The position numbers and the translations under genes are program-made. This document shows positions 1,511 through 39,816 of a stretch of 64,000 nucleotides of DNA, piece after piece. This DNA is from an uncultured Oscillospiraceae bacterium (GTDB lineage: Bacteria; Bacillota; Clostridia; Oscillospirales; Oscillospiraceae). Position 1 is the stretch's first letter. Every line of letters begins with the position of its first letter. Under the pieces are notes generated by a model. That model was not told the DNA's origin and made no database searches. It worked only from the letters and a program-made list of their open reading frames with translations. Location of the stretch: positions 1-64,000 of the forward strand of contig CANQHN010000003.1 of assembly GCA_947623745.1 (NCBI GenBank), in the 5' to 3' direction.

Positions 1511-2575
1511 ATGGACAAGAGATTTTGGAGCAGCCGGATCCAGACGCTGGTGCCCTACACCCCGGGGGAGCAGCCCAAGGACCGGGTGTTCATCAAGCTG
1601 AACACCAATGAGAACCCCTACCCGCCCTCCCCGAAGGTGCTGGAGGCTATCCGGGAGGCCACCGACGCTCGTCTGCGGCTCTACCCGGACCCGGAGGCCC
1701 TGGAGCTGCGGAAGGCGCTGGCGGAGTTTTACGGCGTGGGACCGGAGCAGGTGTTCTGCGGCAACGGCTCGGACGAGGTGCTGGGGCTGTGCTTCTACGC
1801 CTTCTTCTCCCCGGGGAAAAAGGTGGTGTTCCCCGACATCACCTACAGCTTTTACCCGGTCTATACGGAGCTGTTCGGGCTGGACTACGAGGAGATCCCC
1901 CTGAACGGGGACTTCACCCTGCCGGTGGAGCGGTTCCTGGGGGGCAACGGCGGCGCGGTGGTGTGCAACCCCAACGCACCCACGGGAAAGACCCTGCCCC
2001 TGTCCGATATCCGGCGCATCCTGGAGGCCAACCCGGACGTGGTGGTGCTGGTGGACGAGGCCTACGCCGACTTCGGCGCCCAGTCCGCCGTGCCGCTGCT
2101 GAGGGAGTACCGGAATCTGGTGGTGGTGGGCACCATGTCCAAGTCCCGCTCCCTGGCGGGGCTGCGGGTGGGGTACGCCCTGGGCAGTCCGGACCTGATC
2201 GCCGGGGTGAACTGCGTGAAGAACTCCTTCAACTCCTACCCGCTGGACCGGATCGCCCTGGCGGCGGGGGAGGCCGCGGTGCGGGACACGGCGTACTTCG
2301 AGCAGACCCGCAGAAAAATTATGTCAACCAGACAGCGGACGGCGGAGCGGCTCCGGGAGCTGGGGTTCCTGGTCCACGACTCCAACGCCAACTTCATTTT
2401 CATCACCCACCCGGCCAGATCCGGAAGGGAACTGCAGCAGGGGCTGCGGGACCGGGGGGTGCTGGTGCGCCGGTTCGACCGGCCCCGGATCGCCGACTAC
2501 CTGCGGGTGTCCATCGGCACCGACGAGGAGATGGACGCCATGTGCGCCGCCTGCGCTGAGATCTTGAAGGAGTAA
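1511..2575 (+). CDS. hisC: Histidinol-phosphate aminotransferase
   Basis: This is a fold-type I PLP aminotransferase of 354 residues. It converts imidazole-acetol phosphate plus glutamate to histidinol phosphate. Family motifs visible are LNTNENPYPPS at the N-terminus, FCGNGSDEV, the NPNAPTG turn, VDEAYADF with the PLP-binding aspartate, and MSKSRSLAGLR with the Schiff-base lysine near residue 211. I chose the ATG at 1511 over the one at 1505 because GAGAGG at 1496-1501 is then nine bases away rather than three. No other his gene is nearby, and related HisC proteins can accept other amino acids. Confidence 0.88.
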   Translation: MDKRFWSSRIQTLVPYTPGEQPKDRVFIKLNTNENPYPPSPKVLEAIREATDARLRLYPDPEALELRKALAEFYGVGPEQVFCGNGSDEVLGLCFYAFFSPGKKVVFPDITYSFYPVYTELFGLDYEEIPLNGDFTLPVERFLGGNGGAVVCNPNAPTGKTLPLSDIRRILEANPDVVVLVDEAYADFGAQSAVPLLREYRNLVVVGTMSKSRSLAGLRVGYALGSPDLIAGVNCVKNSFNSYPLDRIALAAGEAAVRDTAYFEQTRRKIMSTRQRTAERLRELGFLVHDSNANFIFITHPARSGRELQQGLRDRGVLVRRFDRPRIADYLRVSIGTDEEMDAMCAACAEILKE

Positions 2576-2579
2576 TGTT

Positions 2580-3467
2580 ATGAGATACGACAGCGACCTG
2601 CTGTACCGGCCGCCGGGGGAGTGGAAGAGCTACCTGCTCCAGTGTACCATCGGCTGCTCCAACAACCAGTGTACCTTCTGCGGGATGTACAAGGAGAAGA
2701 AGTTCCGCGTCCGGCCCGTGGAGGACATTTTGGAGGACATTGACATGGCCCTGGACTACTACGGTCCGGGGCTGCGGCGGGTGTTCCTCATGGACGGGGA
2801 CGCCATCGTCATGAAAACCGGCGAGCTGATGCAGGTGCTGCGCAAGCTGTACAGCGCCTTCCCCCTGCTGGAGAAGGTGACCCTCTACGCCGGGCCCCGG
2901 AGCACCCTGTCCAAGTCCCCCCAGGAGCTGAAGGAGCTCCACGACGCGGGGCTGAGCCGGGCCTACCTGGGGGTGGAGAGCGGCAGCGACGACGTGCTGC
3001 GGTTCATCCACAAGGGGGTGGACGCAAAGACCATGCTCCTGGCCGGGCAGCGGCTGGTGGAGGCGGGGATCGACCTGTGGGTCACCGTCATCCTGGGCAT
3101 GACCGGCGCCAACGGCGAGGGGGGCGACTGGCAGGAGCACATCCTGTCCACCGCCAAAATCATCAACGAGATGCGGCCCCGGCACCTGTCCGCCATGACC
3201 TTCGCCCCCGCCAAGGGGACCCCCCTGGGGGACGACGTGCTGGCCGGGCGGTTCACCGTGTGCGACGCGGACCACATCCTGCGGGAGTGCCGGATGCTCA
3301 TCGAGCACCTGGATGTGGACCCGCTGCACTTCACCAGCAACCACGCCTCCAACTACCTGCCCCTGAAGGGCGGGCTGCCGGAGGACAAGGAGAAGTTTCT
3401 GGCCCTGATCGACCAGGCCCTGGAGGGGAAGATCAGGCTGCGCAAGACCCTGAATCGGGGGATCTGA
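2580..3467 (+). CDS. Radical SAM protein with CX4CX2C cluster motif
   Basis: The protein has 295 residues. Its cluster-binding segment reads CSNNQCTFCGMYK, so the three cysteines are spaced CX4CX2C rather than the usual CX3CX2C. This variant is typical of a family of Fe-S oxidoreductases with the GCSxNxCTFCxMYK signature. The central region contains LGVESGSDDVL, a SAM-contacting motif of Elp3/HemN-like enzymes. The ATG lies five bases after hisC, so the genes are co-transcribed. The substrate is unknown. Confidence 0.75.
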   Translation: MRYDSDLLYRPPGEWKSYLLQCTIGCSNNQCTFCGMYKEKKFRVRPVEDILEDIDMALDYYGPGLRRVFLMDGDAIVMKTGELMQVLRKLYSAFPLLEKVTLYAGPRSTLSKSPQELKELHDAGLSRAYLGVESGSDDVLRFIHKGVDAKTMLLAGQRLVEAGIDLWVTVILGMTGANGEGGDWQEHILSTAKIINEMRPRHLSAMTFAPAKGTPLGDDVLAGRFTVCDADHILRECRMLIEHLDVDPLHFTSNHASNYLPLKGGLPEDKEKFLALIDQALEGKIRLRKTLNRGI

Positions 3468-32924: not shown

Positions 32925-33137
32925 TCACTTTTCGGGCCGGGCGGGCATCTTGTCGAAGGCGGGGTTGGTGAGGTAGACGTTTTTGGCGTCCATCTTCTCC
33001 TTGCACAGCCGCAGGCACTCGCCGAAGCGCTGGAAGTGGACGATCTCCCGCTCCCGCAGGAAGCGGATGACGTTGTTCACGTCCGGGTCGTCGGACAGGC
33101 GCAGGATGTTGTCGTAGGTCAGTCGGGCCTTCTGCTC
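32925..33137 (-). CDS. cotJC: cotJC 3' part: C-terminal 70 residues, no start codon
   Basis: On the minus strand this frame encodes EQKARLTYDNIL, then LSDDPDVNN and FLREREIVHFQRFGECL, ending MPARPEK and TGA. It is the C-terminal third of a CotJC spore-coat protein (manganese-catalase family). It holds two predicted metal ligands of the dinuclear site, the Glu of AAEQKA and the His of REREIVH, 33 residues apart as in manganese catalases. The frame has no start codon or ribosome site upstream: it runs into the recombinase element at 33136. It would be translated only after joining to the 5' part at 38735-39144. I see no internal mutation, so it looks maintained rather than decaying. Confidence 0.9.
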   Translation of the reverse strand, partial: EQKARLTYDNILRLSDDPDVNNVIRFLREREIVHFQRFGECLRLCKEKMDAKNVYLTNPAFDKMPARPEK

Positions 33138-33160
33138 TGCTGCAGTTCTGTAAGGACAAC
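33113..33160. other. Attachment site, recombinase-proximal junction of the cotJC element
   Basis: The 8-bp TCTGCTGC at 33136-33143 is identical to 38735-38742 at the other junction. The crossover dinucleotide is TC at 33136-33137 (GA on the coding strand). Bases 33113-33135 belong to cotJC. Bases 33138-33160 belong to the element and end in TAAGGACAAC, the inverted copy of GTTGTCCTTA at 38712-38721. Confidence 0.85.
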
Positions 33161-33231
33161 ATTTTTCAGGCGCCGCCGGGCGGGAGCGAATCTGTCTTGA
33201 CAGAAGGGGCCGCCTTTGGAAGTTGGAATGC

Positions 33232-34791
33232 TCAGAAGTTCCAGTAGATCTCTACCGGGGGGGACTTTTCGCCCTTCGCCCGCTTTCCCACGGTGACATG
33301 GTCGATCAGGAGCTCGACCATCTCGCGGGTCAGGTGCTCCGGGTGCAGATACCTTTGGACGACCTCGCCGCGGCTTTCGCCGGACGCGATCTGCCGCTCC
33401 AGCTCCGCCAGCCGGGCCTCTTCGGACCGGATCAGGCCGTCCAGGCGGTCCTTGTCTCCGGTCAGGCCCTCTGCCAGCTCCCGGAAGGTGGGCTCGCCGA
33501 TCGCCCCCCGCGCCCGGTCCAGGTAGAGCGCCCGGAGCCCCCTGGCGTACTCCGCGGATTTTTTCCGGTAGGCGGCGAGGTTGGCCATAAGGCGCCTGCG
33601 CCGCTCCTCAAGTCCGCTTTTCAGCTCGATGCCCCGCTCCAGGGCGTCCCGGTCCAGGTATTGGTCGGACAGCCGCGCCAGCTCCTGGAGCACGATTTGC
33701 TCCAGCAGGCTGACGGAGATGAAGGAGCCCACGCAGGCGTCCCTGGCGGCGTGCCGGCTGGAGCACTGTAAGTAGTGGCGCCCGTGGTTCTTGGAGGAGC
33801 GCATGGTGTAGCCGCAGTTGGCGCAGAGCACCTTTCGGGAGAACAGGCCGATCTCTCCCCCGGAAAAGGGCTTTGCCCGCTGGGCGATCCTGGACTGCAC
33901 CCGGTCCCACAGCGCCCGGTCGATGATGGGCTCGTGGGTGCCCTCCACCCGGTACCACTCGCTTTTCGGCCGCGGCCTGTTCTGCTTGGTCTTGTAGGAG
34001 ACGCTCCCGTATCTGCCCTGGACCATGTTTCCGATGTACATTTCGTTGGTCAGCATGTCCGCGATGGCGGAGTACCTCCACAGCGTGCTGTTTTTCCCCC
34101 TGGGCTGCCGGCAGCGCAGGCCGTGCAGGCGCTTGTACTCCGTCGGGTTGGGGACGCCCCGGTCATTGAGCATCCGGGCGATCGCCGTTTTTCCGTACCC
34201 CTGCGAGAACAGGGTGAACACCTCCCGGACAACGGCGGCGGCCTCCCCGTCGATGAGGAGATGACCCTTTTGGTCCGGGTCCTTCTGGTAGCCGTAGAGG
34301 GCGAAGGCCCCGATGTGATACCCGTTTTGGCGGCGGTTGACCAAGACGCTGCGGATGTTGTTGGACATGTCCTCCAGATACCACTCGTTGACCAAGCCGT
34401 TGATCTGGCGGGACTTCTTGTTCCCCGCGTTCTCCGTGTCCGCGTGGTCCGCGACGCTGACGAAGCGGATGTTCCAGAGGGGGAAGAGGCCGTGGATGTA
34501 CTTTTCCACCAACTCCATCTCGCGGGTGAAGCGGGACTGGCTCTTGCACAGGATGATGTCGAACCTGTGCTGCTCCGCGTCGCGGAGCATCTGCCGGAAG
34601 GCGGGGCGGTTTCGGTCGGAACCTGTGTAGTCATCGTCGCTGTAAAGGTTATACACTTCCCAGCCCTCCCGGAGCGCGTACTGTATCAGGAGGGCTTTCT
34701 GATTGGCGATGCTGCTGCTGTCGTCGGTCTCCAGTCTCTTGTTTCGGTCCTCCTCGGACAGGCGGCAGTAGATAGCGGCTTTTTTTCCCAT
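33232..34791 (-). CDS. Large serine recombinase of the cotJC element
   Basis: The protein has 519 residues. The resolvase catalytic domain (about 1-150) has the nucleophile in AAIYCRLSEED (S12) and the conserved DDDYTGSDRNRPAF, CKSQSRFTRE and NNIRSVLVNRR segments. A recombinase domain (about 165-290, GYQKDPDQKGHLLID) follows. Then comes a zinc ribbon (CANCGYTMRSSKNHGRHYLQC, about 330-360) and a coiled coil (about 375-475). This is the standard layout of large serine integrases. It is read towards the cotJC 3' part and lies 72 bases inside that junction. The protein probably cuts at the GA core and both integrates and, with a directionality factor, excises the element. Confidence 0.93.
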   Translation of the reverse strand: MGKKAAIYCRLSEEDRNKRLETDDSSSIANQKALLIQYALREGWEVYNLYSDDDYTGSDRNRPAFRQMLRDAEQHRFDIILCKSQSRFTREMELVEKYIHGLFPLWNIRFVSVADHADTENAGNKKSRQINGLVNEWYLEDMSNNIRSVLVNRRQNGYHIGAFALYGYQKDPDQKGHLLIDGEAAAVVREVFTLFSQGYGKTAIARMLNDRGVPNPTEYKRLHGLRCRQPRGKNSTLWRYSAIADMLTNEMYIGNMVQGRYGSVSYKTKQNRPRPKSEWYRVEGTHEPIIDRALWDRVQSRIAQRAKPFSGGEIGLFSRKVLCANCGYTMRSSKNHGRHYLQCSSRHAARDACVGSFISVSLLEQIVLQELARLSDQYLDRDALERGIELKSGLEERRRRLMANLAAYRKKSAEYARGLRALYLDRARGAIGEPTFRELAEGLTGDKDRLDGLIRSEEARLAELERQIASGESRGEVVQRYLHPEHLTREMVELLIDHVTVGKRAKGEKSPPVEIYWNF

Positions 34792-34807
34792 CTTGAACTC
34801 CGCGCCG

Positions 34808-34951
34808 TCACCAGGCGGTGGCGGCGGCCTCCCTGGACCTCTCCAGCTGGTCGATCAGGTCGATCCATACCCTGGTGAACTGCGCCGGGGAGAGTTCGTT
34901 CGTGCCGCTCCGAAAATGACTGGTGCAGGGGAGAAGGTCCTGCTCACACAT
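34808..34951 (-). CDS. 47-residue protein upstream of the recombinase, candidate directionality factor
   Basis: ATG at 34949-34951 (minus strand), with AAAGGGGG nine bases upstream, opens 47 codons ending in TGA 16 bases before the recombinase start. The sequence has a cysteine pair (CEQDLLPC) and a helical segment ELSPAQFTRVWIDLIDQLERSR. I do not recognise a family. Position and size fit a small DNA-binding accessory such as a recombination directionality factor, but this is inference. Confidence 0.55.
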   Translation of the reverse strand: MCEQDLLPCTSHFRSGTNELSPAQFTRVWIDLIDQLERSREAAATAW

Positions 34952-34974
34952 TGGGATATACCCCCTTTCCCGCC

Positions 34975-34982
34975 AGTATATG
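34975..34982 (-). promoter_or_regulatory. Possible -10 element of the recombinase operon
   Basis: Minus-strand CATATACT lies about 24 bases before the 47-residue peptide gene. It contains TATACT, a fair sigma-A -10, but the -35 region is poor (TTCTAG at an 18-base spacing). It also resembles the CATAnnnT -10 of mother-cell sigma factors E and K. Which polymerase uses it cannot be decided from sequence. Confidence 0.35.
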
Positions 34983-35027
34983 CGCTGCCCGGGCCGGCCT
35001 AGAAGGGCGGGGAGCTGGAAATGGAGG

Positions 35028-35056
35028 TTGCTTTTCTGCCCGGCAGGCGGTAAAAT
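35028..35056 (+). promoter_or_regulatory. Promoter of the element's plus-strand genes
   Basis: TTGCTT (35028-35033) and TAAAAT (35051-35056) are 17 bases apart, 57 bases before the lipoprotein ATG. The form is vegetative, so these genes should be expressed during growth. Confidence 0.7.
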
Positions 35057-35112
35057 CAGGGTACGGATGCGGTGTTGACTACCCGAGCATCTGGAAAGGG
35101 AGGAACCAGAAT

Positions 35113-35931
35113 ATGAAGAATAGATTATGTAAATTAATTTCCGCGGCCCTCGCGGCGGCGATGCTGACGGCCTGCTCCGCGCCCAGCGCCGCGCCGGGGG
35201 GAAACCCGGCGCAGAGCGCCGCGCCGGCTGCGGCGTCCGACTCCGGCCCGCTGTCCTCCAGCCAGGAGCAGACGGACCGTGCCCCGGAGGACGACGCGTC
35301 GGGGTTTGTGGTCCTGGCGGAAGCGGTCCCCGATGTGATCCTCGAGATCCGCTACTACTCCACCTACAACTTTGTCGGGGAGCGGGTCCGGGGCTATGAG
35401 GAGCCCTGCGCGCTGATCACAAAGGAGGCGGCGGAGGCCCTCAAAGGGGCGGCGAAGGACGCGGAGGAGCGGGGGTACCGGCTGAAGATCTACGACGCCT
35501 ACCGGCCCCAGTCCGCGGTGGACCACTTTATCCAGTGGGCGGAGGACACCGGGGATACGCGCATGAAGGCGTATTTCTACCCGGAGCTGGACAAGTCGGT
35601 CCTGTTCGAGCAGGGCTACATCGCCGAGCGCTCCGGCCACAGCCGGGGGAGCACCGTTGATTTGACGCTCTTTGACATGACCACGGAGAAAGAGGCGGAC
35701 ATGGGCGGGACCTTCGACTACTTCGGGGAGCTCTCCCACCCCGACTATACCGGCGAGCTGACGGACCAGCAGATCCGGAACAGGGAGATTTTGCGGGACA
35801 TCATGGTGGAGAACGGGTTCAAGCCCCTTGACACGGAGTGGTGGCACTTCACGCTGGAGAATGAGCCCTACCCGGACACCTACTTTACCTTCCCGGTCAG
35901 CGGGGATTCCGTCCCAGATCAGGGAAAATAA
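35113..35931 (+). CDS. VanX-like D-Ala-D-Ala dipeptidase lipoprotein (M15 family)
   Basis: The protein has 272 residues. A signal peptide ends in the lipobox LTAC (Cys near 24), then a low-complexity Ala/Ser/Pro linker to about residue 60. The M15D peptidase domain shows YDAYRPQSAVDHF, SGHSRGSTVDLTLF (zinc His and Asp) and TEWWHFTL (catalytic Glu and zinc His), as in VanX/DdpX. Exported and lipid-anchored, it probably trims peptidoglycan or recycles D-Ala-D-Ala outside the cytoplasm. Cytoplasmic VanX acts differently. ATG at 35113 follows GGGAGGA. There is no vanHA partner. Confidence 0.85.
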   Translation: MKNRLCKLISAALAAAMLTACSAPSAAPGGNPAQSAAPAAASDSGPLSSSQEQTDRAPEDDASGFVVLAEAVPDVILEIRYYSTYNFVGERVRGYEEPCALITKEAAEALKGAAKDAEERGYRLKIYDAYRPQSAVDHFIQWAEDTGDTRMKAYFYPELDKSVLFEQGYIAERSGHSRGSTVDLTLFDMTTEKEADMGGTFDYFGELSHPDYTGELTDQQIRNREILRDIMVENGFKPLDTEWWHFTLENEPYPDTYFTFPVSGDSVPDQGK

Positions 35932-35951
35932 GACAGAGAGGAGGCGGACCG

Positions 35952-38138
35952 ATGGAACAGCTGCTGGATGGCCTGAGCCGCGCCCAGCGGGAGGCGGTCA
36001 CCGCCACCGAGGGGTTCGTGCGGGTCATCGCCGGGGCGGGCTCCGGGAAAACCCGGGCCCTGTCCCACCGGTTCGCCTACCTGGTGAACGAGCTGGGCAT
36101 TTTGCCGGGGAACATCCTGTGCGTCACGTTTACGAATAAGTCCGCCAACGAGATGCGCCAGCGCATCCACGCCCTCACCGGGGACAACGACACGGGGTAC
36201 ATCAACACCTTCCACGGGTTCTGCGTGTCCGTGCTCCAGGAGGACAGCCACGCGGTGCAGTACCCCAAGAGCTTCCTGGTGCTGGACAACTCGGATATCG
36301 ACGCTATGCTCCAGATCATCTACGAGGAGCGGGGGCTGTCCCTGCGGGACATGACCTTCTCCGCCGCCCGGGACATGATCGAAATACAAAAGCTGTTCAA
36401 GCGGCCGGACTACTACCGGGACATGATCGCCCTGTCCCTGGACGAGCTGAAGGAGAAGTATGACCGGGCCGCTGGGGCGAAGGATATCATTTTCTACGGC
36501 TACCTCTACCAGGAGAAAAAGTGCTTCGGCCTGGACTACAATGACCTGATCAAGTTCACCCTGTACATCTTTGAGCAGGACCCGGAGATCCGGCTCAAGT
36601 GGCAGCGACGGCTGGAGTACATCATGATCGACGAGTTCCAGGATATCGACCAGCTCCAGTATGAGCTGATGACGGCGCTGTGCGGCTACCACAAGAACCT
36701 GTTCATCGTGGGGGACCCGGACCAGACGGTGTACACCTGGCGGGGGGCCAATGTGAAGTACCTGCTGGACTTCGACAAGGATTTCGCCCCGTGTAAAACT
36801 ATTCTGATGATGGAGAACTACCGCTCCACGCCCCAGATTTTGGCGGCGGCCAACTCCCTTATCGCCAACAACAAAAACCGGGTCAAGAAGGACCTGATCC
36901 CCACCCTGCCGGACGGGGAGGAGGTCCTGTGCCACTACGCCGACGACCCCGGGGCGGAGGCCGATTGGATCGCGGAGCGGATGAAGCTGCTCCACGAGGG
37001 GGGAGTCCCCTACCGGGACATGGCGGTGCTCTACCGGGCCCACTACGTCACCCGGAGCGTGGAGGACACCCTCTTGCGGGAGAAGGTGCCCTACGCCATT
37101 TACAGCGGGGTGCAGTTCTTCGGACGGGCGGAGATCAAGGACGCGCTCTCTTACCTGCGGATGATCGCCTACAGGGACGACCTGTCCTTCCTGCGGGTGG
37201 CCAACGTGCCCAAGCGGAACCTGGGCAAGCGGCGGATGGCTTTTCTCCAGGAGTACGCCGCGCAAAATGGCTGCACCCTCTACGGGGCGCTGACCCGGAA
37301 CCTGGAGGACGACGTTTTCAAGGGCACGAAGGCGGCCTCCTTCGTCTCCCTGGTGGAGCGGTACGCCGCCGGGTACGAGGGGCGGCCGGTGTCCGAGGTG
37401 CTCTCCGCCCTTCTAAACGACAGCGGCTACGAAAAAATGCTCCGCACCGAGGGCAGCCAGGAGCGGCTGGACAACCTGGCGGAGCTGAAGCAGTCGGTGT
37501 ATGAGTACGAGACCACCTGCGGCGAGGAGGTCACCCTGGAGCACTACCTGGCCCATGTCGCCCTGTTCACCAACGCCGATACCGCAGACACCGGCGACCG
37601 GGTGAAGCTCATGACCGTCCACGCCGCCAAGGGGCTGGAGTTCCCATACGTGTTCCTGTGCGGCATGAACGAGGGCATCTTCCCCTCCCGGAAAACGGCG
37701 ACCCTGGAGGGCATGGAGGAGGAGCGGCGGCTGGCCTTCGTGGCCATGACCCGGGCGAAAAAGGCCCTGTACCTGTCCGAGGCGGGCGGGGAGCACTTCG
37801 ACCGGTCCCCCCGCTACCCCTCCCGGTTCCTCCTGGACATCGACCCGCCCCTGCTCACCTTCACCCGGGAGCCCCAGGAGGGGCTGATCGCGGCGGCCAG
37901 GGAGTATGTCCAGGCCTCGCTCCAGCGCCTCCCGGAGAACCGGGACTCCCTGATTTTCCCCGTCGGGACCCGGGTGCGCCACGCCCTGTTCGGGGAGGGC
38001 ACCGTGCTGGACGCGGACACCGACAAGGGGGCCCACCTGGTCCAATTCGATTCCATGCCCACCCCCAGGCAGATCTCATTCCGGGCGAAGCTGGAGCGGT
38101 GCGGCCGCGGAGAAAGTGGGGAGGCGGGAGCGCGGTGA
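35952..38138 (+). CDS. PcrA/UvrD-type superfamily 1 DNA helicase
   Basis: The 728-residue SF1A 3'-5' helicase shows motif Ia-I VIAGAGSGKTRAL (Walker A), motif II MIDEFQDID, motif III GDPDQTVYTWRGA, motif IV MENYRSTPQIL, motif V VHAAKGLEFPYVF and motif VI RRLAFVAMTRAKK. A C-terminal Tudor-like segment (VGTRVRHALFGEGTVLDAD, about 672-690) is typical of PcrA. The domain order and length match a housekeeping PcrA more than a phage helicase, yet the gene lies inside the excisable element. The next gene starts at an overlapping GTGA. Confidence 0.92.
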   Translation: MEQLLDGLSRAQREAVTATEGFVRVIAGAGSGKTRALSHRFAYLVNELGILPGNILCVTFTNKSANEMRQRIHALTGDNDTGYINTFHGFCVSVLQEDSHAVQYPKSFLVLDNSDIDAMLQIIYEERGLSLRDMTFSAARDMIEIQKLFKRPDYYRDMIALSLDELKEKYDRAAGAKDIIFYGYLYQEKKCFGLDYNDLIKFTLYIFEQDPEIRLKWQRRLEYIMIDEFQDIDQLQYELMTALCGYHKNLFIVGDPDQTVYTWRGANVKYLLDFDKDFAPCKTILMMENYRSTPQILAAANSLIANNKNRVKKDLIPTLPDGEEVLCHYADDPGAEADWIAERMKLLHEGGVPYRDMAVLYRAHYVTRSVEDTLLREKVPYAIYSGVQFFGRAEIKDALSYLRMIAYRDDLSFLRVANVPKRNLGKRRMAFLQEYAAQNGCTLYGALTRNLEDDVFKGTKAASFVSLVERYAAGYEGRPVSEVLSALLNDSGYEKMLRTEGSQERLDNLAELKQSVYEYETTCGEEVTLEHYLAHVALFTNADTADTGDRVKLMTVHAAKGLEFPYVFLCGMNEGIFPSRKTATLEGMEEERRLAFVAMTRAKKALYLSEAGGEHFDRSPRYPSRFLLDIDPPLLTFTREPQEGLIAAAREYVQASLQRLPENRDSLIFPVGTRVRHALFGEGTVLDADTDKGAHLVQFDSMPTPRQISFRAKLERCGRGESGEAGAR

Positions 38139-38647
38139 GGGACATCTTTTTCAAAACGGACGGCTTTATTTTCTCCCTCCGGGCCGGCGGCCTTCTGGTC
38201 CGGGACGGTAAGGTCCTTTTACAGAAGCACAGGGAGAAGGAGGACTACTATATCATCGGCGGGCACGTCACCGGCATGGAGACGGCGCGGGACGCGCTGA
38301 AAAGGGAGTTCCGGGAGGAGCTCGGGGCGGAGATCGAGCCCGTCCGCCTGGCGGCCGTGGCCGAGGCGTTCTACCCCTGGGAGGGCACGCCCTGGCACCA
38401 GATCTGTTTCTACTATCAGGTCCGCCTGGAGGACGCGCGGGACATGCCCCTGGAGGGTGTGATCCACGGACAGGATGAGCTGGGCGGGGAGCGGTTCGAC
38501 CTGGATTTCTGCTGGGTGCCGCTGGACAGGCTGAAAAGGGGGCTGAACCTGTACCCGCCGGAGCTGATCCCCGTAATCCTGGGGGACAGGGAGGAGCTCG
38601 TCCACTTTGTCTACGATGAGTTCCGCTGTCCCAGGCCGGAGCAATAG
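38135..38647 (+). CDS. Nudix hydrolase
   Basis: The 170-residue protein starts at GTG 38135, overlapping the helicase stop, with GGGGAGGCGGG upstream. The Nudix box is GGHVTGMETARDALKREF followed by REELGAEI. The opening FKTDGFIFSLRAGGLLVRDGKVLLQKH and the tail VPLDRLKRGLNLYPPELIPVIL resemble clostridial Nudix proteins of unknown substrate. It is the last gene of the element before its terminator. Confidence 0.83.
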   Translation: MRDIFFKTDGFIFSLRAGGLLVRDGKVLLQKHREKEDYYIIGGHVTGMETARDALKREFREELGAEIEPVRLAAVAEAFYPWEGTPWHQICFYYQVRLEDARDMPLEGVIHGQDELGGERFDLDFCWVPLDRLKRGLNLYPPELIPVILGDREELVHFVYDEFRCPRPEQ

Positions 38648-38680
38648 ATAGGCGCTGCGATTGGAAGATCGGGTCTGGAC

Positions 38681-38711
38681 CGCCGGGCGGACGCACCGCC
38701 CGGCGTTTTTT
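38681..38711 (+). terminator. Terminator at the edge of the element
   Basis: A perfect 10-bp stem CGCCGGGCGG (38681-38690) with 38696-38705 is followed by T6. It directly abuts the attachment arm at 38712. Confidence 0.9.
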
Positions 38712-38759
38712 GTTGTCCTTATGAGACTGCACCATCTGCTGCCAGGTCCTCGGACAGAT
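38712..38759. other. Attachment site, distal junction of the cotJC element
   Basis: TCTGCTGC at 38735-38742 repeats the core at 33136-33143. Element bases 38712-38734 begin GTTGTCCTTA, and 38737-38759 belong to cotJC. Joining the two element arms around GA gives a 48-bp site in which 18 of 23 flanking base pairs are symmetric, typical of a serine-integrase attP. Confidence 0.85.
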
Positions 38760-39144
38760 CGGCGATGACATCTCCCAGGGACTGCATGGTGGAGGCGCTC
38801 CAGGGGTAGCCGGAGGCGAACTGGGGGTAGATGCCGGTGGTGTGGTCCACAAAATAGGAGGCGAAGAGGGGGTTCTTCTGCACCTCCTCGTCGGTGAGGT
38901 TCCGGGTGAGCTGGTGGACGATGGCCGCCACCATCTCCATGTGCCCCAGTTCCTCGGTGCCGATGTCGGTCAGCAGGCCCTTGGCCTCGGCGAAGGGCAT
39001 GGCGTAGCGCTGGGACAGGTAGCGCATGGAGGCGCCCAGCTCCCCGTCGGGACCGCCGTACTGAGTGATGATATAGGCGGCCAGCTTGGGGTTGGGGGTG
39101 GTGATCTTTACCGGGAACTGCAGCTTTTTCTCATAAATAAACAT
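38719..39144 (-). CDS. cotJC: cotJC 5' part: N-terminal 136 residues plus element-encoded tail
   Basis: On the minus strand the frame starts FIYEKKLQFPVKITTPNPKLA and runs through QYGGPDGELGASMRYLSQRY, TDIGTEELGHMEMVAAIVHQL and DVIADLSEDLAA. This is the N-terminal two thirds of the CotJC/manganese-catalase family, with metal ligands E35, E65 and H68. After AA at residue 136 the element supplies five codons (DGAVS) and a TAA, so the present product lacks the last two ligands. It starts directly after cotJAB and is co-transcribed with it. Excision replaces the GAT (Asp) codon with GAG, restoring ligand Glu137. Confidence 0.92.
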   Translation of the reverse strand: MFIYEKKLQFPVKITTPNPKLAAYIITQYGGPDGELGASMRYLSQRYAMPFAEAKGLLTDIGTEELGHMEMVAAIVHQLTRNLTDEEVQKNPLFASYFVDHTTGIYPQFASGYPWSASTMQSLGDVIADLSEDLAADGAVS

Positions 39145-39145
39145 C

Positions 39146-39604
39146 TCACTTCACCTCGTTCTGCTGATAGTTCCAGGGCCACGGGTCCTTGAGCCAGCTG
39201 TACTTGTCGCAGTTGGCCGCGCAGGAGCGGGTCAGGGGGCCGAAGCGCTCCTCGTAGGCGGCCTTGGCCGACTTCTCCATGGCGGCGTACTGCTTGAACA
39301 TCTCGAAGGCCTCGGTGTCGTCGGGGTGGGTGTCCAGATAGGTCCCCAGCTCCAGCACCACGAACTCGATGGCCTGGAGCTCCACCAGCGGGTTGGAGGG
39401 CAGGGCGCTGCCCTCCACCTTCAGGTGGAAGGGGAGGTTCAGGCCGGGGAACAGAGTGCCGTTGCTCAGCGCGTCGTTCTGGGAATACTTCTGGGGATTA
39501 TCCTGCTGGAACGGCACATAGGGGACTGCCAGCCCCGCGCAGGAGGGCAGGGTGCCGTAATGGTCCGGGCAGCTCGGGCGCGTGCCGCCGTTTTCCTTAT
39601 TCAA
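39146..39604 (-). CDS. cotJB: CotJA-CotJB fusion spore-coat protein
   Basis: The 152-residue product joins two coat proteins normally made separately. About 25-60 is CotJA-like (VPYVPFQQDNPQKYSQNDALSNGTLFPGLNLPF). About 68-152 is CotJB-like (NPLVELQAIEFVVLELGTYLDTHPDD and YEERFGPLTRSCAANCDKYSWLKDPWPWN). The start is uncertain. I place it at TTG 39602-39604, nine bases after AAGGAGG on the minus strand. An ATG closer to that site (ATGTTTTGA) stops at once. It is the first gene of the cotJ operon, with cotJC starting one base after its stop. Confidence 0.78.
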   Translation of the reverse strand: MNKENGGTRPSCPDHYGTLPSCAGLAVPYVPFQQDNPQKYSQNDALSNGTLFPGLNLPFHLKVEGSALPSNPLVELQAIEFVVLELGTYLDTHPDDTEAFEMFKQYAAMEKSAKAAYEERFGPLTRSCAANCDKYSWLKDPWPWNYQQNEVK

Positions 39605-39651
39605 AACATGGTTCCTCCTTGGGCGTAGTTGGAGGGCGGACCCTCCATCCC

Positions 39652-39659
39652 ATCTTATG
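39652..39659 (-). promoter_or_regulatory. Possible sigma-E type -10 of the cotJ operon
   Basis: Minus-strand CATAAGAT fits the CATAnnAT -10 consensus of the mother-cell sigma factor E and lies about 48 bases before the proposed start. The -35 region is not a good match, so this remains tentative. In Bacillus the cotJ operon is sigma-E dependent. Confidence 0.4.
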
Positions 39660-39754
39660 AGCGGGGGAGAAATCTGGGACCGGCGGGGTCGCCGGGGGCG
39701 CGGGGCCAGCCGGGCCGCGCTGGGGCAAAAGCGAAAAGAAACGCCCCGCGGGAA

Positions 39755-39783
39755 TTGCTTTTTCCGCCGTGGGGCGCTATAAT
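39755..39783 (+). promoter_or_regulatory. Promoter of the cobalamin operon
   Basis: TTGCTT (39755-39760) and a perfect TATAAT (39778-39783) have a 17-base spacer, 33 bases before the GTG at 39817. The leader is too short for a cobalamin riboswitch. Confidence 0.8.
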
Positions 39784-39816
39784 GACATATTGAACACAAT
39801 GTGAGGGGGGAGCGGG

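Follow-up and report, generated by a model that had tools for sequence, protein, structure and literature searches.

Sporulation-gene rearrangements found in print concern a handful of target genes, and intervening elements are known in sigK, spsM, spoVFB, gerE and yabG (PMC10747680). In the skin element of sigK in Clostridioides difficile, an internal large serine recombinase (LSR; CD1231) and a recombination directionality factor (RDF; CD1234) act on a mother-cell gene that is reassembled (PMC5025042). The RDF of skin is a 72-amino-acid (aa) protein under the control of sigma-E and SpoIIID, and it is required for the excision of skinCd (PMC5025042). Here, a stretch of 64,000 nucleotides from an uncultured Oscillospiraceae bacterium (the window; assembly GCA_947623745.1, contig CANQHN010000003.1, positions 1 to 64,000) was analyzed, in which cotJC, the gene for the manganese catalase of the spore coat, was interrupted at codon 136/137 by a 5.6-kb LSR element. 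It was concluded that this was a cotJC-intervening element that is likely excised in the mother cell.

The locus was similar to skin in its internal LSR and in the mother-cell gene to be reassembled, but its target is a structural coat enzyme, whereas that of skin is a regulator. Moreover, a candidate small open reading frame (ORF) was located directly before the LSR, unlike in skin. With gin (gerE, Bacillus cereus; PMC5595907) the element shared non-phage cargo, a recombinase and a split sporulation gene, although the gene and the bacterial class were different and gin was reported to be 28.6 kb long compared to 5.6 kb here. The elements yin (yabG), vfbin (spoVFB) and SPbeta (spsM) also reside in sporulation genes, but the targets given for them in PMC10747680 exclude cotJC, and yin is described there as unique to one strain. 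For the cyanobacterial heterocyst elements (nifD, nifH, hupL) it was likewise reported that one gene can have several element variants and can hold more than one element, with four in nifD of Rivularia (PMC4874684); the terminal cell in that case is a heterocyst, and no endospore is formed. The convergence of many unrelated LSRs on one conserved gene was described in a large LSR catalogue (PMC10083194), where the main text contained neither "catalase" nor "spore" and contained "sporulation" once. A 678-bp CotJC homologue directly adjoining attR (an attachment site) of the prophage phi027 was reported (PMC11222575). No report of a cotJC-intervening element was found among the matches listed for the PMC open-access literature, which does not cover preprints. 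The element is of the skin, gin and yin kind, and its target cotJC appears to be new.

Exon 1 of cotJC (38735-39144, minus strand), recognized by sequence and Pfam, reached from codon 1 through codon 136 into the first bases of codon 137 and ended in SEDLAA, followed by the element codons DGAVS and a stop. Exon 2 (32925-33143, minus strand), recognized in the same way, comprised codons 135-206 and the stop with the core included; it had no start codon of its own, and its translation began with AAEQKAR and was open through to the stop. An 8-bp core, GCAGCAGA, was present on the minus strand at the end of exon 1 (38735-38742) and at the end of exon 2 (33136-33143), and occurred five times in the 64 kb when both strands were summed. 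The exons joined over a single copy of GCAGCAGA gave 206 stop-free codons. Both matched the Pfam family Mn_catalase (PF05067), exon 1 covering positions 1-150 of the profile and exon 2 positions 150-199. Residues E35, E65, H68, E137 and H170 of the joined protein aligned with those positions of the solved Lactobacillus-type catalase 1jku that we take to be the manganese ligands, so that the five ligands in a PF05067 protein, by which a manganese catalase of the CotJC type is defined, were all found. The intervening element measured 5,599 bp with one core copy counted (33144-38742) and encoded a 519-aa LSR (33232-34791, minus strand) with Resolvase, Recombinase and Zn-ribbon domains (PF00239, PF07508, PF13408, PF14287), which was placed in the clade of codon 137 (site B) by a tree. 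A preliminary description of this DNA had reported the N-terminal CotJC part ending in EDLAA with five foreign codons and a stop, the start-less C-terminal part, the shared core, the 206-codon join, the ligand spacing and the serine recombinase between the halves; all of these were reproduced, the core copies at exactly the same positions. The locus had the split coding region, the site-specific recombinase of its own and the short shared core restoring the frame that define a sporulation gene-intervening element, and it differed from skin in that the interrupted gene was cotJC and not sigK.

The source genome is a 3.05-Mb draft of 76 contigs, which raised the question of an assembly or annotation artefact. 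The whole element was located on one contig of 155,933 bp, however, and in the single-contig genomes G006, G153 and G308 cotJC was likewise split, the LSR being located either between its exons or next to them. An artefact was thus rejected as having a negligible probability.

The integrity of the split genes was investigated in relatives. At 30 of 30 junctions tested (29 in relatives and one in the window) the exons joined in frame and without gaps at a common core of 2 bp or more, those of the relatives at 81% of the reference score or more; eight of the 30 pairs had exons on different contigs and were assumed to be one gene. The site-B LSR was used as a query, and the best 80 of 523 candidate stretches encoding relatives were taken, all from named genomes. 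Together with the window and seven same-genus regions these gave 88 loci, a few of which were identical DNA. A cotJC piece bounded at codon 137 accompanied the related LSR in 82 of the 88 loci (all except L007, L014, L037, L056, L071 and L072), and therefore more often than by chance. The GA of codon 137 was common to the site-B junctions examined. Inactivating mutations in either half in most related genomes were named in the preliminary description as a finding that would contradict it. In the site-B loci, all 31 stretches checked of exon 1 (codons 67-136) and all 66 of exon 2 (codons 137-176) contained neither a stop nor a frameshift. All five manganese ligands were kept in 16 of 16 joined split genes. 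The mean ratio of nonsynonymous to synonymous substitution rates (dN/dS) was 0.070 for joined split genes (n=16; 94 of 120 pairs) and 0.073 for intact ones (n=17; 109 of 136 pairs).

The sporulation gene spoIVA was intact in the source genome. Among 200 genomes of the family, cotJC and SpoIVA occurred together in 170, cotJC only in 6, SpoIVA only in 10 and neither in 14 (Fisher p 4.7e-11, kinship not corrected for), and SpoIVA was kept in 66 of the 70 genomes with non-intact cotJC.

The site-B LSR loci included Flintibacter, Blautia, Roseburia, Anaerotignum, Anaerotruncus, Diplocloster, Clostridium fessum and Oscillibacter. In four of them (Anaerotignum, Roseburia and two of Blautia) an identical element end directly abutted divergent exons, and the Diplocloster and C. 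fessum loci shared 11,048 bp at 97.8%, spanning the element end and exon 1. The site-B element therefore moves between genera, and its boundary at codon 137 is sharp. Identical insertions had been recommended as a search in relatives, and near-identical elements were indeed present in different genera.

This mobility is also what would be expected if an ordinary integrative element had used cotJC as a bacterial attachment site (attB) and left it inactive, with a dispensable catalase backed up by a second homologue and with recent transfer explaining the open exons. The source genome did encode another homologue of CotJC with an identity of about 40% (L002; G000 contig C1, 146961-147494), which was uninterrupted in that range; furthermore, 24 of the 200 family genomes were without cotJC proper, 10 of these having spoIVA. 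Such an explanation was nevertheless considered unlikely, as it is opposed by the absence of stops and frameshifts in all 97 exon stretches, by exons that were still open in genes with two or three elements, by spoIVA in 66 of 70 genomes with split genes and by a sigma-E-like promoter preceding the recombinase operon.

The control of the operon was analyzed next to the LSR. A 47-aa ORF (34808-34951, minus strand) preceded the LSR in the window, and a similar ORF stood before the LSR in other site-B elements. A pattern for this small ORF was written from alignments and 89 site-B loci were scanned, the window and L083 being the same DNA; an RDF-like ORF preceded the LSR in 62 of the 89. The 47-aa candidate gave no match in PHROGs, NCBIfam or Pfam, and family names for the small ORFs were likewise not obtained. 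As the small RDF of C. difficile is sigma-E-controlled, an RDF role is credible here, and the 47-aa ORF makes a likely candidate for the directionality factor. The sigma-E-like promoter form ATA-N14-17-CATAnnnT was found before the RDF-like ORF in 44 of the 62 loci, in 41 of them with a 17-nt spacer, compared to a mean of 1.0 and a maximum of 4 in shuffled sequences and to 17 of 784 control regions, taken upstream of the remaining ORFs of these loci. CATAnnnT as such preceded the ORF in 59 of 62 loci (116 of 784 control upstream regions), and in 55 of the 59 its distance to the start codon was 15-44 nt. At spoIVA of the source genome a promoter of this form, ATA-N16-CATATAGT, was present. Mother-cell excision is therefore likely.

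In the other LSR classes, which are described below, a CATAnnnT no more than 400 nt from the LSR was present in 7 of 11 (A), 3 of 4 (C), 2 of 2 (C2), 4 of 8 (D), 1 of 3 (A2) and 1 of 1 (E) cases, counted with no control, and different small ORFs were found upstream of the LSR in many cases. In intact cotJ regions of the same genus CATAnnnT occurred within 900 nt in 17 of 17 and ATA at -35 in 1 of 17, with no shuffled control. The 17-nt spacer between -35 and -10 was itself conserved (GGACTTGCCGC in many loci, e.g. L004-L008), which is unusual for a plain promoter and perhaps indicates a regulator site.

The excision could also be random or stress-driven in growing cells, which would make cotJC a phase switch or a simple attB. 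LSRs are general integrases, and excised yin was reported to be present at all culture time points (PMC10747680). The sigma-E-like promoter before the operon and the sporulation gene as a target argue against it, and this possibility was judged improbable.

It was proposed that excision in the mother cell would proceed as follows. The element would originally have entered cotJC through the action of the LSR, at a conserved codon of the active site, as suggested by the exact and mobile boundary, and the gene would remain split during growth and in the forespore. Within the mother cell, the small upstream ORF, the putative RDF, would be turned on together with the LSR by sigma-E. The two proteins would recombine the two GCAGCAGA sites, a 5.6-kb circle would be released, and the restored 206-codon CotJC would go to the spore coat. 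The forespore would retain the element, which would therefore be inherited. The gapless joins, the open exons, the retention of spoIVA and the sigma-E-like promoter support such an excisable, sporulation-linked element. Thus, of the mother-cell control of cotJC claimed in the preliminary description, the part that could be followed in genomes stood (30 of 30 joins, open exons, spoIVA in 66 of 70 genomes, the promoter in 44 of 62 loci), while RDF activity, timing and excision itself are what we infer.

Several observations weighed against this proposal. Neither an excised junction nor a circle was seen, a search of the genome having given one exon-1 copy and a distant paralogue; the 38-bp phage-type attachment site (attP) of the window had no match in IMG/VR. 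The RDF pattern was missing in 27 of the 89 site-B loci, in three of which the LSR was at a contig edge. When the LSRs were clustered at 85%, the full promoter form was present in only 7 of 13 clusters and the -10 in 12 of 13, because the promoter loci were related. The window itself had only the sigma-E/K-like -10, CATATACT (34975-34982, minus strand), before the candidate RDF, and ATA at -35 was absent. A SpoIIID site in the RDF promoter was rejected, with 3 of 62 loci compared to 6.1 in shuffles. The synonymous divergence (dS) of the LSR was often far below that of the exons (0.19 versus 2.3 for Roseburia and Blautia loci), which means that recent insertion is possible and that the conservation of the exons may in part be older than the arrival of the elements. 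The dN/dS values were thereby weakened as a proof of function, the LSR dS being far below the exon dS in many pairs, and the mobility between genera weakens selection arguments as well. Finally, in the same-genus genome G025 cotJC was broken in the absence of an element, its frame being shifted by a deletion that spans site B. That gene (L172, about 2550-3087) was otherwise uninterrupted and lacked about 25 codons around site B, which would be either a failed excision scar, a true loss or an assembly error.

Insertions were found at five places in cotJC, namely around codons 30 (D) and 53 (E) and at codons 62-65 (A), 137 (B) and 175-176 (C), most of which were active-site motifs. Seven LSR types with 19-37% identity between types were each confined to one place, and types A and A2 hit the same site at a mutual identity of 23%. 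In a quick tree of 73 rows the nine labels needed eight changes, which is the minimum. Labels B (24 rows), D (9), A2 (8), C (4), C2 (2) and spoIVA (3) each fell on one side of a branch, A (13 rows) needed two changes with one long-branched row outside, and E was a single row. The shared cores were reduced by eye to GG (A), GAA (A2), GA (B), a GGxGA stretch (C), GG (D) and GA (E), some junctions allowing more than one core. Three-piece genes were joined in G082 and G019 (B and C) and in G072 (D and C), and three pieces were seen in seven further genomes (G183, G121 and G268 on one contig each; G148, G160, G103 and G179). The pieces 24-65, 63-137 and 135-191 in G404 imply a four-piece gene, and one cotJC is thus apparently in four pieces. 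In Blautia sp. An249 (L006), which has the site-B LSR, one exon ran from site A to site B and a site-A-type LSR was located 4 kb beyond it; by its sequence, this cotJC holds two elements. The smallest element was 3.1 kb long (G153, a one-contig genome), and in G308, also of one contig, the site-A exons were 157 kb apart (L222-L223) with an A2-type LSR beside exon 2.

Uninterrupted cotJC, the search for which in relatives had been recommended, was found in both surveys. Among 64 same-genus genomes 56 matched the joined CotJC, 17 of them uninterrupted, and the rest broke at different codons or were incomplete. The family sample consisted of the 200 genomes, each at least 90% complete, of which 179 had an initial cotJC match. 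After 29 low-scoring genomes were rechecked, G132 and G244 (paralogue only) and G232 (30% hit) were dropped and G197 was found to be uninterrupted. This left 176 genomes with cotJC, 106 of them uninterrupted and 70 without an uninterrupted match; the 24 without cotJC proper comprised 21 with no match and the three dropped. By site, 45 of the 70 were assigned to A (16), D (9), C (7), A or E (6), B (3), D and C (2) or were unclear (2), and 41 of these 45 had at least two matches, the second of which may be a paralogue. The other 25 had at least two pieces (22) or one piece only (3). Contig ends or divergent termini may explain some cases, and 70 is therefore an upper count. As a control, spoIVA was matched in 180 of the same 200 genomes with more than one match in 12, a measure that differs from the one for cotJC. 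A sigK model gave eight paired half-matches at position ~110 in 61 genomes, none above the curated cut-off. In a class sample of 146 genomes, 99 had a cotJC match, some via the paralogue only, and both site-A pieces were visible in 13 family labels; G333, whose two pieces abut, was left out of the class list.

Splits were also seen outside cotJC. The spoIVA gene itself was split at codon ~362-367 in G244, G147, G179 and G108. An LSR was located directly before the second spoIVA piece in G244 (contig C23; L199, L217) and G147 (contig C2; L198, L218), where the exons were 42 and 31 kb apart on one contig, respectively; this LSR clade adjoined the site-A cotJC clade in the tree. The LSR group nearest to the site-B clade (L093, L095, L096, L098 and similar same-genus loci) flanked the start of a PRK06851-type ATPase, truncated near residue 98 at an IVDGTAPH motif in those same-genus loci, and by its sequence this gene is probably another LSR target.

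The remaining genes of the window element were on the strand opposite to the LSR and the 47-aa ORF. Pfam identified a D-Ala-D-Ala dipeptidase (PF01427; 35137-35931, plus strand) with a lipoprotein-like N-terminus, a UvrD/PcrA-type helicase (35952-38138, plus strand) and a NUDIX hydrolase (38147-38647, plus strand). The dipeptidase scored 218 bits against the VanX model, below the cut-off of 320, and therefore no resistance was claimed. The best PADLOC matches of the helicase were GajB. It was an extra paralogue, and the idea that the element carries off an essential PcrA was rejected, as a second PcrA-like gene was present elsewhere in the genome. No phage structural or lysis genes were among the Pfam matches of this cargo, on which PHROGs was not run. 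A search for terminal repeats among 19 viral loci, several of which were only parts of their contigs, led nowhere. Other elements were looked at without forming a representative sample. Their cargo included Cas1c, Cas7c, Cas8c and Cas3c of the clustered regularly interspaced short palindromic repeats (CRISPR)-Cas type I-C (site C, G082), Cas3 and Cse1 (site B, G016), type I restriction-modification with a Rep protein (site C, G005), YqaJ recombinase with an OLD/AriA-like ATPase (G072), a plasmid-type Rep (G074) and a pyrimidine nucleoside phosphorylase (G153). Upstream of cotJC, the cotJ genes on the minus strand began with one ORF in which a domain search found CotJA and CotJB domains fused (39146-39799, start position provisional), directly followed by cotJC, and a -10-like site, CATAAGAT, was located upstream of the cotJ genes (39652-39659, minus strand).

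The element of the window thus belongs to a group of cotJC-intervening elements that is widespread, and the case is larger than first stated: in a large gut family an uninterrupted copy was missing in 70 of the 176 species having the gene, with several sites and unrelated recombinases. Many sites and unrelated recombinases in one gene make a comparative test of why elements choose terminal-cell genes possible. Many new sets of LSR, att sites and putative RDF, each with a short crossover core, are offered, and the cotJC of spore-forming gut bacteria may frequently be overlooked or misnamed by annotation pipelines. We consider it fairly probable that mobile DNA in gut Clostridia has cotJC as its main developmental landing site, with the convergence of at least seven distinct LSR lineages on five conserved spots of this 620-bp gene, among them several codons of the active site. 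Genes of three to four pieces would be rebuilt via successive, separately encoded mother-cell excisions. Defence cargo (CRISPR-Cas I-C, Cse1-type Cas, type I restriction) would be kept in the inherited forespore genome and lost from the mother cell, which would amount to a germline/soma split like ciliate DNA splicing.

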